Shown: in pieces, positions 18,880 through 44,437 of the stretch | How positions within the stretch are numbered: the stretch's first letter is position 1 | Layout of the letters: each line of letters begins with the position of its first letter | Source of the DNA: Rhodospirillaceae bacterium | GTDB lineage: Bacteria; Pseudomonadota; Alphaproteobacteria; Kiloniellales; DSM-21159 | Length of the DNA: 64,000 nt | Direction: 5' to 3' | Assembly (NCBI GenBank): GCA_029265995.1 | Contig: JAJUFM010000003.1 | Coordinates: 1-64,000, forward strand | Notes under the pieces: model-generated | What the model was told of the DNA's origin: nothing | Seen by the model: only the letters and a program-made list of their open reading frames with translations | The model's database searches: none | Translations under genes and position numbers: made by a program

Positions 18880-20797
18880 GGACCAGCGCCTCGCGCTTCA
18901 CGTCGAGGGGAAAGAGGCAGCGAACCTCCCGCTCTGCATCCAGAGGCTGCAGCGCAATTTCCCCGCGTTTGCATGCGTCCCGCGCAAAGGCGCAGCGGGG
19001 CGCAAAGGCGCAGCCGGGCGGGCGCTCGCCGGTGGCGGGGGGGCCTCCCTCGATCGCGTCGAGCTGGCGATCGCCTTGCCCCAACACGGGCACACAGTCG
19101 ATCAGCTTGCGCGTATAGGGATGGGCGGGGGACTCCAGCACCTCCTTCGTCGGCCCGCTTTCCACAATCTGCCCGGCGTACATCACGGCAACGCGGTCGG
19201 AGAGGGCGGAGATAACGCCAAAATCGTGGGTAATGAAGAGGATGGAGGTCTCCTTCTCATGGCGCAGCTTGTTCATCAGCATTAGAATTTGAGCCTGCAC
19301 CGTGACGTCCAGCGCGGTGGTCGGCTCGTCGGCAATGATCAGCTCCGCATCATTGGCCAACGCCATGGCGATGCAGACCCTCTGGCGCATACCGCCGGAC
19401 AGTTCATGCGGATAGGCCTGCAAGCGCCGCCGCGGATTAGGGATGCGCACCAGCTCGAGTAGTTCTTCAGCCTTCTTCTCGGCCTGTGGGCGGCGTAGCG
19501 GCTGATGCGCCCGGATTGCCTCTACAAGCTGATCACCCACGGTGAAGAGCGGATGCAAGGTGGTCAGCGGATCCTGGAAGACATGGCTGACGGGACCACC
19601 ACGCAGTTCGCGAATTCGCCGATCGTTGGCCTCCAGAAGATCCTCGCCCTGGAAGTAGATCGATCCGCCGACAATGCGCCCAGGCGGCGTGGGCACCAGC
19701 CCCATGATCGACATGGCCGTTATCGACTTTCCGGAACCGGACTCTCCCACCAGTCCCAGGCACTCCTGGCGACCGATGTGCAGATCGATTCCCGAAATCG
19801 CCTCGATCTGCCGCTGCCCAAGGCCGAATGCAGTGCGTAACCCGGAGAGTGAAAGAACAGCATCCTTGGCCGTCGCAGGTTTCTCCGGCACCGACTCACG
19901 TTCGACCGCCGTGCGTGCCATGGGGCGCGCCAGCGCGCCCGATTTGAGGCGAGGATCCAGAACATCGCGAATGCCGTCGCCCAGGAGGTTGATGCTCATC
20001 ACCAACAGGAAGATGAGGACGCCCGGGATGATCGCCACATGCGGCGCATTGAAGAGAACGCTACGCCCGTCACCGAGCATCGACCCCAGATCCGCTTGCG
20101 GCGGCTGAGCACCCAATCCAAGGAAGCTCAGCCCCGCGGTTTCCAGGATCATCCAGCCAATGGTGGTGGACATGGTGATGACGATGATCGGCAGCACGTT
20201 GGGCAGGATCTCAGTGAAGAGAATGGCAGCGCGCGATTTGCCCGAGAGGCGGGCTGCATCAATGAACTCGCGCCGTGCCAGGCCCAGGGTGACGCCACGG
20301 ATATTGCGCGCGAAGAAGGGAATGTTGATCAGGGCGATTGCATAGAGCGCGTTGATGAGCCCCGGCCCTAGAACCGCCACGATAGCCAGGGCCAACAGGA
20401 TATAGGGGAAGGCCATCAGCATGTCGATGCCGCGCATCATCAGGCTGTCCGCCCACCCCCGCGCGTAACCCGACAACAGGCCGATCAGCGAACCAAAGAA
20501 AGCGGCGATCAGGGTGGCCGAAACGCCGACTGCAATGCTAACCCGCGCGCCGTGAAGCAGCCGCGACAGCAGATCCCGACCCAGGGCATCGGTACCTAGC
20601 AAGTGCCCGTCGGAGAGTGGTGGGAGCAGCCGATTGGCCGGCGAGGTTGCATTGGGATCCAGCAGAGGTAGCAGCGGCGCAATGAGCGCAAGGAGCAGGA
20701 TGGTCACCAGCACAACCAGGCCCGCGGTCGCCAGGCGATTGTTCAGGAGAAGTCCGAGAGCGGAGACACGTCCTTGGGAGGCGGCAGAACTGCTCAT
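18872..20797 (-). CDS. Fused dipeptide/oligopeptide ABC transporter permease (DppC-like) and ATP-binding protein (DppD-like)
   Basis: N-term permease ([60 protein letters not shown]) continuous with ATPase ([60 protein letters not shown]). Confidence 0.93.
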
Positions 20798-32779: not shown

Positions 32780-33175
32780 ATGACAGCAATGACGGCGCAG
32801 AAGGCAAACATTTTCCAGCTCGTGGAACGCGGCGACCGCCAGGCCGTCTCAGCCATGCTGGCTGAAGGGACTGACATAAACCTGCGCGATCGCTTCGGCG
32901 TTGGGTTACTGCACCGAGCGGCTGCCGGGGGTGATACCGAAATGCTCCGGTTATTGATGGAGAATGGTGCCTCCCCCAACGCAACAAGCGAAGTCGGCAA
33001 CACCCCGCTCATGCTGGCGTCCGCCAATGGTCATCTGGCCGCAGTAGAACTTCTACTGTCTCAAGGCGCTGACCCCGAAATGAAGAATCGTTGGGGCTAT
33101 TCCGCCGCAGCTTGGGCCGACTGGGCTCCGGCGGGAGCAGACATCAAAGCTGTCCTACAGGCGGCTCACGCTTAG
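32780..33175 (+). CDS. Ankyrin repeat domain-containing protein
   Basis: NIFQLVERGDRQAVSAMLAEGTDINLRDRFGVGLLHRAAAGGDTEMLRLLMENGASPNATSEVGNTPLMLASANGHLAAVELLLSQGADPEMKNRWGYSA. Confidence 0.92.
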   Translation: MTAMTAQKANIFQLVERGDRQAVSAMLAEGTDINLRDRFGVGLLHRAAAGGDTEMLRLLMENGASPNATSEVGNTPLMLASANGHLAAVELLLSQGADPEMKNRWGYSAAAWADWAPAGADIKAVLQAAHA

Positions 33176-33266
33176 CAGGCGCCTGCGGCTTTCCGAAGCT
33201 TGAATATGGCGGAACACGCGCCATCTGATCATTTCGATTCACGGTCTCCGGCGCCCGCCGCCGGTT

Positions 33267-33281
33267 TGCTGCAATGCAGCA
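33267..33281. promoter_or_regulatory. PhaR-like TGC-rich palindrome (TGCTGCAATGCAGCA)
   Basis: Perfect 6-bp arms around AAT; fits CTGC-N3-GCAG; weaker TGC-rich relatives at 33357-33372 and 33386-33398. Confidence 0.5.
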
Positions 33282-33399
33282 TCGCACATAATCCGCACAA
33301 GCTCTTCATATACCACCTGATTTGCAGAAATTTCATGGCGACAGCCAATTTTTCTGTTGCAGTGCGGCGCAGCCTCTGTCATATATTGCAACGCGGCAT

Positions 33400-33486
33400 C
33401 GAGCGACCCACGTTGCTCTGCCGTACGTCTCTAAGGGCGTTTCCTCCCTAGACTTGGGCCGTGCCGTTGGCACGGCCTTTTTTTTT
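33400..33486 (+). ncRNA. mmgR: Candidate MmgR / alpha-r8 (suhB-type) trans-acting sRNA; 5' end approximate
   Basis: GGGCGTTTCCTCCCTAGACTT followed by intrinsic terminator; exact 10-mer TTTCCTCCCT at 33440-33449; N-formylglutamate amidohydrolase gene about 1.2 kb away. Confidence 0.8.
33457..33486 (+). terminator. Intrinsic terminator of the sRNA candidate
   Basis: GGCCGTGCC-GTT-GGCACGGCC followed by nine T. Confidence 0.92.
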
Positions 33487-33508
33487 AACTGTGCCGCCGA
33501 CGCACCTT

Positions 33509-34018
33509 CTATTCCTTGAGCTTGAGCGCCTTCTTCTCCAGCTTCCCGAGAACGATCATTACGAGAAGGCCAAGGACGACGGCGATAGCCGCAATCATCC
33601 ACAGGCCGAGGCCGCAGGCGACCCCCGTCGCGCCGGATAGCCACAGGCCGGCCCCCGTCGTTACGCCGGTCACACTGCCACGCGATTGTATGATGGTGCC
33701 GGCGGCGAGGAAGGCTACACCCGACGTTACAGCCTCAATCATGCGGATGGGATCGGCGCGGATGCTATCGCCCTGCACGATGTCGGCGTGGACGATTTCC
33801 AAGGTCAGGATCGAGAAAAGAGCGCTTGCTACCGCTACCAGTATATTGGTTCGCAGGCCTGCGGGACGCTGGCGCCACTCGCGCTCGACTCCGATGGCCG
33901 CGCCCATTACCGCGGCCAGGAGCAAACGCGCTATGATCGTGCCTATGGGAAGCACGGGCCACGAGGTTACATCGAGCACAGCGCTTTCCATATGCACCTC
34001 CATAGATAGAACAGTCAT
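33509..34018 (-). CDS. MgtC/SapB family membrane protein
   Basis: IIARLLLAAVMGAAIGVEREWRQRPAGLRTNILVAVASALFSILT...AVTSGVAFLAAGTIIQSRGSVTGVTTGAGLWLSGATGVACGLG. Confidence 0.93.
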   Translation of the reverse strand: MTVLSMEVHMESAVLDVTSWPVLPIGTIIARLLLAAVMGAAIGVEREWRQRPAGLRTNILVAVASALFSILTLEIVHADIVQGDSIRADPIRMIEAVTSGVAFLAAGTIIQSRGSVTGVTTGAGLWLSGATGVACGLGLWMIAAIAVVLGLLVMIVLGKLEKKALKLKE

Positions 34019-34127: not shown

Positions 34128-34673
34128 TTACTCGCGTTGACGGGGCTCTGATTGCTCAATGAGAGGCCGTTGCATCAGGAGGGTGTCTAGCCAACAGTCA
34201 AACTTGAAGCCAACCTCTGCTAGAGTCCCCACGTGCCGAAATCCCAGCTTTTCGTGAAGTGCGACAGAACCACTGTTCGCGCTTCGCGTGATTACCGCCA
34301 ACATCTGGCGTTTCCCGGCGGCAGTGGCAGCTTTGATGACAGCTTTTAGCAGCTCGCTACCGATGCCCCGGCGTTGCGCCGAGGGATCTACATAAACCGA
34401 ATCTTCGACCGTGAAGCGATAGGCAGGGCGCGGTCGATAGGTTGACGCATAGGCATAACCCTTTACCTCACCCTCCGCCTCGGCAACGATCCAAGGCAGG
34501 CCGGCGTCGCGCACCGCCTGAATGCGGCGGGAGAATTCTTCCAAATCCGGTGGCGTAAGTTCGAAAGAAGCCGCACTGCAGAGCACGTGGTGCGCGTAGA
34601 TCCGATGCATGGCCTCCAGGTCGGCCGCCGTTGCGTCGCGCAGGCGGACCGAAGCGGGCAAATTTGCGCTCAT
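34128..34673 (-). CDS. GNAT family N-acetyltransferase (phosphinothricin acetyltransferase-like)
   Basis: VRLRDATAADLEAMHRIYAHHVLCSAASFELTPPDLEEFSRR...EDSVYVDPSAQRRGIGSELLKAVIKAA...GSVALHEKLGFRHVGTLAEVGFKFDCWLDTLLMQR. Confidence 0.9.
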   Translation of the reverse strand: MSANLPASVRLRDATAADLEAMHRIYAHHVLCSAASFELTPPDLEEFSRRIQAVRDAGLPWIVAEAEGEVKGYAYASTYRPRPAYRFTVEDSVYVDPSAQRRGIGSELLKAVIKAATAAGKRQMLAVITRSANSGSVALHEKLGFRHVGTLAEVGFKFDCWLDTLLMQRPLIEQSEPRQRE

Positions 34674-35566
34674 CGCGGTAGGAGCTCCTCTTCTGGAACT
34701 CCAGAAAGAGCTTCCAGCAGTCGTGGTGCGAAGGCTGCCAGCTTGCGCAGTCCCGGCCGACGCCGGATCCGAGCTTCGTCCATGTATAGCGCCCGATTTA
34801 TTTCGATCTGCAGGGCGTGTACGCCTTTATCCGGCCGCCCATAGTGACGCGTTACAAAGCCACCCGAATAGGGGCGATTGCGGCTGACCCTGAAGCCCGC
34901 TTGCGACAAGGTATCGCTCGCCCGCTCGAGAACAATCTGGGCACAGGCGGTGCCGTGACAGTCACCCAGAACGAAATCTACTCGATGTTTCGCCGACCCT
35001 GCATCGTGACCGCTGGCGCTAGAGGGCATGGAGTGGCAATCAAGCAGAATGCAGTAGCCAAAGCGCCGGCGGGTTTCCGCCACCAGGTCGCTCAGGCTGC
35101 GATGGTAGGGGTAGTAATGAATGCGAATGCGCTCGAGCGCCTCGCTCAGGGGCAACTTCTGTCGGTAGATCTCGGCACCATTTGCAACGACCCTTGCGAT
35201 CGTACCCAAGCCTGCCGCGACGCGTGGAGACTTCGTGTTGGCGAAGTGCGGCAAAGGCCCGTCGAACATCGTCGGGTCCAGCTCATAAGGCTCCCGGTTA
35301 GGATCCACATAGGCGCGAGGAAAAAGGGCGCGCAGCAGGGGAGCGCCAAGGTCAGGAGCGCACGCGAAGATCTCGTCGACAAAGCTGTCTTCCGAGCGCC
35401 GTAACATCAGCGGATCGAGTCTGGAGGCCGCCAGAAAATGCGGTGGATAATCCGAACCGCTGTGTGGCGAGGAAATCACCAGCGGCAGGCTTTGGCGAAG
35501 TGGCTGGAGCACCTCGTGGGAAGGCGTGCTTGCCTGGGCAGAGGCAATGGAGACGTCCATTGGCAT
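34670..35566 (-). CDS. N-formylglutamate amidohydrolase family protein
   Basis: LPLVISSPHSGSDYPPHFLAASRLDPLMLRRSEDSFVDEIF...GYCILLDCHSMPSS...FVLGDCHGTACAQIV...RNRPYSGGFVTRHYGRPDKGVHALQIEINRALYMDE. Confidence 0.93.
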   Translation of the reverse strand: MPMDVSIASAQASTPSHEVLQPLRQSLPLVISSPHSGSDYPPHFLAASRLDPLMLRRSEDSFVDEIFACAPDLGAPLLRALFPRAYVDPNREPYELDPTMFDGPLPHFANTKSPRVAAGLGTIARVVANGAEIYRQKLPLSEALERIRIHYYPYHRSLSDLVAETRRRFGYCILLDCHSMPSSASGHDAGSAKHRVDFVLGDCHGTACAQIVLERASDTLSQAGFRVSRNRPYSGGFVTRHYGRPDKGVHALQIEINRALYMDEARIRRRPGLRKLAAFAPRLLEALSGVPEEELLPR

Positions 35567-42604: not shown

Positions 42605-44437
42605 ATGACCGATCAGCAGGGCAAGAAAAGTAGCGACGTTCATGTGCCGGATCCGGTGGCGGTCAGCAAAAGCATGGCTGACATCATGGAACGCAGCCAA
42701 CGCGTGGTTGGCGAGTTCCTGCGGCGCCAGGCCAGCACTCCAAGTGATCCCCCCTCACCCGACCCGCTGAACATCGGCAGCGCCTTCATGGAGATGACTG
42801 CGAGACTGATGGCCGATCCCGTCCGCCTGATGCAGGCGCAGGCGGAGCTCTGGCAGGACTACGTGCGCCTTTGGCAGGCAACCAGTTTGCGGATGATGGG
42901 CCAGCCGACAGAGCCTGTTGTGGAGCCTGAACGAGGCGACCGCCGCTTCCGCGATCCAGCATGGGAGGAAAGCCACCTTTTTGACTACATCAAGCAGTCC
43001 TATCTCTTGAGCGCGCGATGGCTTCAGGCGCAGGTTCGAGAGGTCGAGGGCCTGGATCCACAGACAGCCCGGAAGCTCGATTTCTACACGCGCCAATTCA
43101 CCGACGCTTTGTCGCCCAGCAATTTTCTAATGACGAATCCGGAGGTGCTGCGGGCGACTCTGGAAAGTGGCGGAGAGAACCTGATCAAGGGGTTGCAAAA
43201 CCTCCTAGATGACTTAGAGCGTGGAAAGGGGCAGCTTCAGATATCGATGACCGATCCAAAAGCCTTCGAAGTCGGAGGCAACCTGGCACTGACACCCGGC
43301 AAGGTCATTTACCAGAACGATCTGATCCAGCTGCTCCAGTACAACCCGCGCACCGAGAAGGTCTACAAACGCCCGCTTCTCATCATTCCGCCCTGGATTA
43401 ACAAGTTCTACATCCTCGATCTTCGCGAAAAGAACTCCTTCGTGAAGTGGGCGGCCGATCAGGGCCACACCGTGTTTGTCGTCTCGTGGGTCAATCCGGA
43501 CGAGGAGCTCGCCCAAAAGTCCTTTGAAGACTACATGGTCGAGGGCCTCTTCGCCACGATCGACGCGGTGGAAGAGGCAACCGGTGAAAAGGAGCTCAAC
43601 CTGATCGGTTACTGCCTCGGCGGAACGCTTTTAGCGGCTGCCCTCGCCTATCTTCATGCAAAGCCGCCGAAAAAGCCGGGCCCAGATCCGAAACGCATCA
43701 AGAGCGCCACCTTCTTCACCACAATGACGGATTTCGAGGAGGCAGGGGAACTTTCGGTCTTCATCGATGAGGAGCAGCTCAAGGCCCTTGAACGGCGGAT
43801 GGAAGACAAGGGGTATCTCGAGGGCGCTGCCATGGCGACCACCTTCAACATGCTCCGCGCCAACGATCTGATCTGGTCCTTCGTTGTCAACAATTACCTG
43901 CTCGGCAAGGACCCTTTCCCCTTCGACCTCCTCTACTGGAACAGTGACTCCACGCGCATGCCTGCGGCGATGCATTCCTTCTATCTCCGCGAAATGTATC
44001 AGGAAAACCTGCTCGTGCAGCCAGGGGGCATTGAGCTCCTGGGGGTGCCCATCGACCTTGGCACCATCAAGACGCCGATCTTCATGGTGTCAGCGCGAGA
44101 GGATCATATCGCGCCCTGGCGATCGACCTACGCCCTTACTCAACAAGTTGCGGGGCCTAAACGCTTCGTGTTGGCGGCTTCAGGACATATTGCAGGGGTG
44201 ATCAATCCTCCCGAGGCCAATAAATACAGCCATTGGACCAACGAAAAGTGCCCTCGCACGCCCGAGGAATGGCTGGCTGGTGCAGAAGAGCAACCGGGCT
44301 CCTGGTGGCCCACCTGGGGCCGTTGGATGAACAGCAAGGGCGGCGCTCGGGTCCCTGCGCGGCAGCCTGGCGATGGTAAGCTGCAGCCACTGGAGGATGC
44401 GCCGGGCTCCTACGTCAAGGTGAGGGCGATCGATTGA
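42605..44437 (+). CDS. phaC: Class I poly(R)-hydroxyalkanoate synthase
   Basis: LLIIPPWINKFYILDLREKNSFVKWAADQGHTVFVVSWVNPDEELAQKSFEDYM...LNLIGYCLGGTLLAAALAYLHAK...ASGHIAGVINPPEANKYSHWTNE. Confidence 0.97.
   Translation: MTDQQGKKSSDVHVPDPVAVSKSMADIMERSQRVVGEFLRRQASTPSDPPSPDPLNIGSAFMEMTARLMADPVRLMQAQAELWQDYVRLWQATSLRMMGQPTEPVVEPERGDRRFRDPAWEESHLFDYIKQSYLLSARWLQAQVREVEGLDPQTARKLDFYTRQFTDALSPSNFLMTNPEVLRATLESGGENLIKGLQNLLDDLERGKGQLQISMTDPKAFEVGGNLALTPGKVIYQNDLIQLLQYNPRTEKVYKRPLLIIPPWINKFYILDLREKNSFVKWAADQGHTVFVVSWVNPDEELAQKSFEDYMVEGLFATIDAVEEATGEKELNLIGYCLGGTLLAAALAYLHAKPPKKPGPDPKRIKSATFFTTMTDFEEAGELSVFIDEEQLKALERRMEDKGYLEGAAMATTFNMLRANDLIWSFVVNNYLLGKDPFPFDLLYWNSDSTRMPAAMHSFYLREMYQENLLVQPGGIELLGVPIDLGTIKTPIFMVSAREDHIAPWRSTYALTQQVAGPKRFVLAASGHIAGVINPPEANKYSHWTNEKCPRTPEEWLAGAEEQPGSWWPTWGRWMNSKGGARVPARQPGDGKLQPLEDAPGSYVKVRAID

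Follow-up and report, generated by a model that had tools for sequence, protein, structure and literature searches.

A candidate mmgR (alpha-r8) small RNA gene with PhaR-type promoter motifs in a relative of Aquibaculum arenosum

The locus at positions 33393–33486 (+) of the 64-kb stretch of DNA analysed here (hereafter the window) is, by its covariance match, structure and synteny, the single mmgR (alpha-r8, Rfam suhB) gene of its host, an alphaproteobacterium of the same genus as Aquibaculum arenosum (Rhodospirillales, Rhodovibrionaceae). In the full reading, to which we give a probability of about 0.9, this mmgR gene would encode a trans-acting RNA of ~94 nt that represses through its seed and is transcribed from a PhaR-repressed promoter. 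A known small RNA (sRNA) family gains a member here, and some regulatory detail is added in the form of PhaR motifs at the promoter.

Family assignment, terminator and seed

The original prediction, made from the sequence, had named the element a candidate MmgR/alpha-r8 sRNA and proposed a scan with the Rfam suhB/mmgR covariance model. That scan (Rfam release 15, with the curated gathering threshold applied over the 64-kb window) bore the candidate out, giving a match to RF00519 (suhB/mmgR) at 33408–33493 (+) that spanned the full model length with 56.3 bits, well above the cut-off of 41, and an E value of 6.4e-9 over the 64 kb, a value that chance would hardly give. RF00519 was the sole Rfam family above threshold in the window, and this was its sole match above the cut-off genome-wide, so that the genome holds one full alpha-r8 copy. 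Two further genome matches of 24 bits (contigs C168 and C80) were rejected as G + C-rich terminators without the 10-mer. At the same spot as the RF00519 match, the Rfam families Betaproteobacteria toxic sRNA, SorY, SorX, anti-hemB, and sbrA scored far under their own cut-offs and were likewise discarded.

The alpha-r8 10-mer TTTCCTCCCT, an anti-Shine-Dalgarno-like seed reading UUUCCUCCCU in RNA, was read directly at 33440–33449 (+), followed by AGACTT as predicted, and occurs once in the window with both strands counted. A Rho-independent terminator occupies 33456–33486 (+) by sequence, terminator scan, and fold, and the 9-bp perfect stem, 3-nt loop, and T9 first described by eye were thereby recovered: the arm GGCCGTGCC lies at 33457–33465, the loop GTT at 33466–33468, the arm GGCACGGCC at 33469–33477, and the T9 at 33478–33486, with an extra G33456–T33478 wobble closing the stem. 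Folded by itself, the stem reached a predicted −19.7 kcal/mol, whereas shuffled sequences averaged −8.0. Alignment of 22 relatives showed no variation in GGCGTTTCCTCCCT or in the terminator core, and compensatory changes were found in three terminator pairs across the 22 homologs. The family traits on which the prediction drew, namely the 10-mer, the terminator, synteny with a gene for N-formylglutamate amidohydrolase (FGase), and regulation of polyhydroxybutyrate (PHB) in Sinorhizobium meliloti, agree with the published accounts (PMC12559287, PMC8401924).

The likely sRNA transcript extends over 33393–33486 (+), with its end placed at the T run. Its 5′ end is probably near 33393, giving ~94 nt, rather than at 33400 as had been proposed. 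The 94-nt RNA had a predicted fold of −47.0 kcal/mol (z −5.6), in which a 5′ hairpin of 13 pairs takes up 33393–33424 (+). A weak hairpin, ACGUC/GGCGU, follows at 33425–33440 (+), directly 5′ of the 10-mer and including its first U, according to the RNAalifold consensus and pair counts; 97.3% of cells in these counts were paired. Arms of at least four pairs preceded the 10-mer in 71 of 76 distinct homologs, compared with ~39% of shuffles, and the consensus hairpin is ACGUC/GGCGU here and GCCC/GGGC in most other lineages. The single-sequence fold of the window RNA favours another pairing than ACGUC/GGCGU. A weak hairpin 5′ of the 10-mer fits the description of alpha-r8 RNAs in PMC12559287. Reading the Rfam first stem with a 15-nt insertion here was set aside as probably an alignment artefact, since the local hairpin fits better.

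The 10-mer had been described as single-stranded. Its sequence stood, but a fully unpaired state is not what folding predicts here: its CCCU is predicted to pair with GUCUCUAAGGG in the window species, with an unpaired probability of 0.04–0.06 against means of 0.72–0.85 at the same positions over 79 homologs. The mean unpaired probability over the whole 10-mer in these homologs was 0.63–0.92 by position. The AGAC 3′ of the 10-mer can pair with a GUCU 5′ of it in the window species and in three loci (L005, L006, and L010) from A. arenosum and a sister genus, and in that fold most of CCCU is predicted to be paired. Part of the seed may therefore be inaccessible when Hfq is absent. The paired 3′ half of the seed, together with a score of 56.3 bits that lies below the best copies of the class (up to 78.7), could also indicate a degenerate or silent alpha-r8 copy. 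We consider such decay highly improbable, as this is the sole full copy in the genome, nothing in its seed, terminator, or promoter elements is disrupted, and the lower score accompanies a longer 5′ part that is common to the family.

Genomic neighbourhood and distribution among relatives

The two small ORFs over the sRNA region (33200–33451 and 33322–33519) had no Pfam match, and the genes on either side stop at 33175 (+) and 33509 (−), so that no credible ORF explains the region, as the original prediction had held. Upstream and co-directional lies an ankyrin gene (32780–33175, +). Downstream and convergent to the sRNA are genes for MgtC (33509–34018, −) and a GNAT protein (34128–34673), followed by the FGase gene (34670–35566, −; Pfam PF05013, 255 bits), the syntenic marker of alpha-r8, while a phaC gene is found at 42605–44437 in the same window. 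The earlier assignments of these genes, with GNAT and mgtC between FGase and the RNA, were thus confirmed. FGase linkage is frequent but not universal in the alpha-r8 family, and sisA of Caulobacter crescentus is likewise downstream of FGase. The convergent order FGase–GNAT–sRNA was common in related orders, and an intervening MgtC gene was seen only in Aquibaculum.

The sRNA scored above the cut-off in all 12 family genomes searched, the window genome included, and was usually convergent with FGase. Class-wide, under filters stricter than those of the smaller searches, an alpha-r8 RNA was found in 129 of 290 genomes. The sRNA region of a same-genus genome (G004) was identical to that of A. 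arenosum CAU 1616, the two loci (L005 and L020) agreeing over 1 kb. Weak matches of 30–32 bits in relatives were rejected, as they lacked the exact 10-mer.

Several other arrangements were observed among the loci collected. Two 3-kb loci from two related genomes (L152 and L155) each carried three alpha-r8 copies in a tandem array with a PhaR-type motif upstream of each copy, and another (L074, 4448–4477, −) had two 10-mers 20 nt apart with one terminator, possibly a double-seed alpha-r8 RNA. Near the middle of L017, L018, and L019, a recurrent weak match consisted of a conserved CTACGTCTCCCAGACGTGAAGCCTCCCTGTTCAACTTG followed by a terminator, which is possibly a separate sRNA of Rhodovibrionaceae with a CCTCCCT-type seed.

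The co-directional ankyrin gene ends ~280 nt before the terminator, and no strong sigma-70 consensus precedes the sRNA; both points would suit an element that merely terminates the ankyrin mRNA at its 3′ end, or a 3′-UTR-derived RNA processed from that mRNA. Most family relatives, however, retain the sRNA together with the −10/operator region although a divergent SLT transglycosylase gene lies upstream. Such a gene cannot read through into the sRNA, which must have its own promoter in these genomes. Given also the full suhB/mmgR covariance match, we regard an origin in the ankyrin mRNA as very unlikely. The original prediction had stated that it would fall if the terminator served the ankyrin mRNA alone, and the conserved promoter elements and the relatives with a divergent gene make this improbable.

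Promoter region and PhaR-type motifs

The mmgR-type gene is preceded by a candidate −35 element, TTGCAG (33357–33362, +), assigned by its position, and a candidate −10 element, CATATA (33380–33385, +), separated by a 17-nt spacer. A generic sigma-70 scan gave no promoter above threshold here, CATATA included; CATATT or CATATA was common at the −10 place in homologs.

Upstream of the 10-mer, PhaR/AniA-type motifs (YGCRNYGCR) were located at distances of 170, 82, and 53 nt; these matches start at 33270, 33358, and 33387, and another at 33363 overlaps the one at 33358. The 333-nt gap thus contains four matches (two of them overlapping), where 0.23 would be expected from the window's own density. 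The proximal operator candidate TGCAACGCG (33387–33395, no strand assigned) lies between the −10 element and the likely start, and a second motif found by the motif scan, TGCAGTGCG (33358–33366), overlaps the −35 element. A. arenosum showed a like arrangement over the −35 element, with TGCATTGCA at −82. The distal site, recovered by a genome pattern search, is a PhaR-like perfect palindrome, TGCTGCAATGCAGCA (33267–33281, no strand assigned), the core of which at 33270 precedes the proximal site by 117 nt.

Among 79 homologous copies, 68 carried the proximal motif between −75 and −35 relative to the 10-mer, and 86 motif matches fell in the bins from −80 to −41 compared with ~2–3 per 20-nt bin further upstream; as the homologs share ancestry, these counts are not independent. 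A second peak appeared 106–136 bp further upstream of the proximal site, in 31 of the copies. In relatives, the distal motif recurs ~120 bp ahead of the proximal one. The genome search gave three palindromes of the strict TGYTGCANTGCARCA type: one at the sRNA promoter, one ~100 bp ahead of the ATG of the phasin gene, and one upstream of a fumarase-like gene. The last is a perfect PhaR-type palindrome, TGTTGCANTGCAACA, on contig C119 at 20334–20348 (L129).

PhaR (AniA) is a PHB-sensing repressor with the motif core YGCRNYGCR in S. meliloti, where the mmgR promoter binds PhaR in EMSA at a comparable site, CAATTGTGCACCGCAGCATTA (PMC12542648). The window motifs equal this consensus, and we infer from their sequence that they are candidate PhaR operators. 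An alternative that concerns the PhaR part alone accepts the RNA as described but supposes that the motifs bind a different regulator or no regulator at all, or assigns the distal palindrome to the divergent neighbour of the relatives. In relatives, the palindrome may indeed act on that gene and not on the sRNA, as it lies near the start of the divergent transglycosylase gene in most of the family, and A. arenosum has no distal motif. The window, on the other hand, has the co-directional ankyrin gene and no divergent gene upstream, and the palindrome is nonetheless kept; a palindrome of the same type precedes the phasin gene, and PhaR binding to the mmgR promoter of S. meliloti is established in vitro. 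We therefore consider this alternative unlikely, though worth bearing in mind.

Known systems, possible targets, and proposed role

With MmgR of S. meliloti, the window RNA shares the 10-mer, the terminator, FGase synteny as a family trait, the covariance match, a PhaR-type operator in the promoter, and the presence of PHB genes. MmgR of S. meliloti is 77 nt long, whereas ~94 nt are predicted here, the 5′ hairpin being larger. The window locus has additional PhaR-type motifs over the −35 element and 117 bp ahead of the proximal site, and GNAT and MgtC genes stand between FGase and the RNA. With SisA–D of C. crescentus (PMC12559287), it shares the seed, the weak hairpin before the seed, and the terminator, but C. 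crescentus has four alpha-r8 copies and the window genome one.

Seed function has been demonstrated for SisA of Caulobacter, the 10-mer of which blocks translation by pairing, on Hfq, with Shine-Dalgarno regions (PMC12559287). In S. meliloti, MmgR regulates PHB, reducing both its accumulation and the level of phasin, and is reported to be under the control of NtrC, being activated on nitrogen depletion (PMC8401924). The window genome has hfq, phaR, phasin, and phaC genes. Predicted seed pairing with the start regions of phasin (−14.7 kcal/mol) and phaC (−11.0 kcal/mol) was no better than that with genes of the window (−8.7 to −23.4 kcal/mol), and pairing at this background level does not support the PHB genes as direct targets. 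Exact seed complements, AGGGAGGAAA, were found at 13 genome sites, this locus included. Three of nine other sites inspected sit just before real ORFs, which were named by eye as 3-hydroxyisobutyrate dehydrogenase-like, solute-binding, and sugar dehydrogenase-like. Enrichment of AGGGAGGAAA is expected from ordinary Shine-Dalgarno sites, whatever the sRNA does.

In the mechanism that we propose, the promoter at ~33357–33385 would give rise to a trans-acting RNA of ~94 nt, with its 3′ end at the T run, which probably binds Hfq via its U tail. The UUUCCUCCCU seed would pair with Shine-Dalgarno regions of mRNAs and repress them, as extrapolated from SisA of Caulobacter. By analogy with S. meliloti, PhaR over the promoter probably represses the sRNA gene and would be released when PHB granules capture it. 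The sRNA would then be co-induced with phasin and hold back the translation of some carbon-storage and uptake genes. We infer the expression, PhaR binding, Hfq binding, targets, and PHB effect of the sRNA in this organism, in which the putative link to PHB is drawn from the operator motifs.

At the level of sequence, the recurrence of these motifs suggests that PhaR control of the mmgR RNA is widespread in Alphaproteobacteria. A bolder proposal, tentative and in our estimate somewhat short of even odds, is that this control is conserved across the class and is not a rhizobial peculiarity, that in Rhodovibrionaceae and related lineages an operator pair ~120 bp apart may allow repression by looping or joint control of the sRNA and a divergent cell-wall gene, and that together with the phasin operator it would make up a PHB-sensing feed-forward circuit.

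The locus places MmgR in a little-studied lineage, where a single copy would make a simple system for testing the role of the RNA, and the recurrent PhaR-type operators suggest that PHB sensing and this RNA were coupled early in the history of the class.
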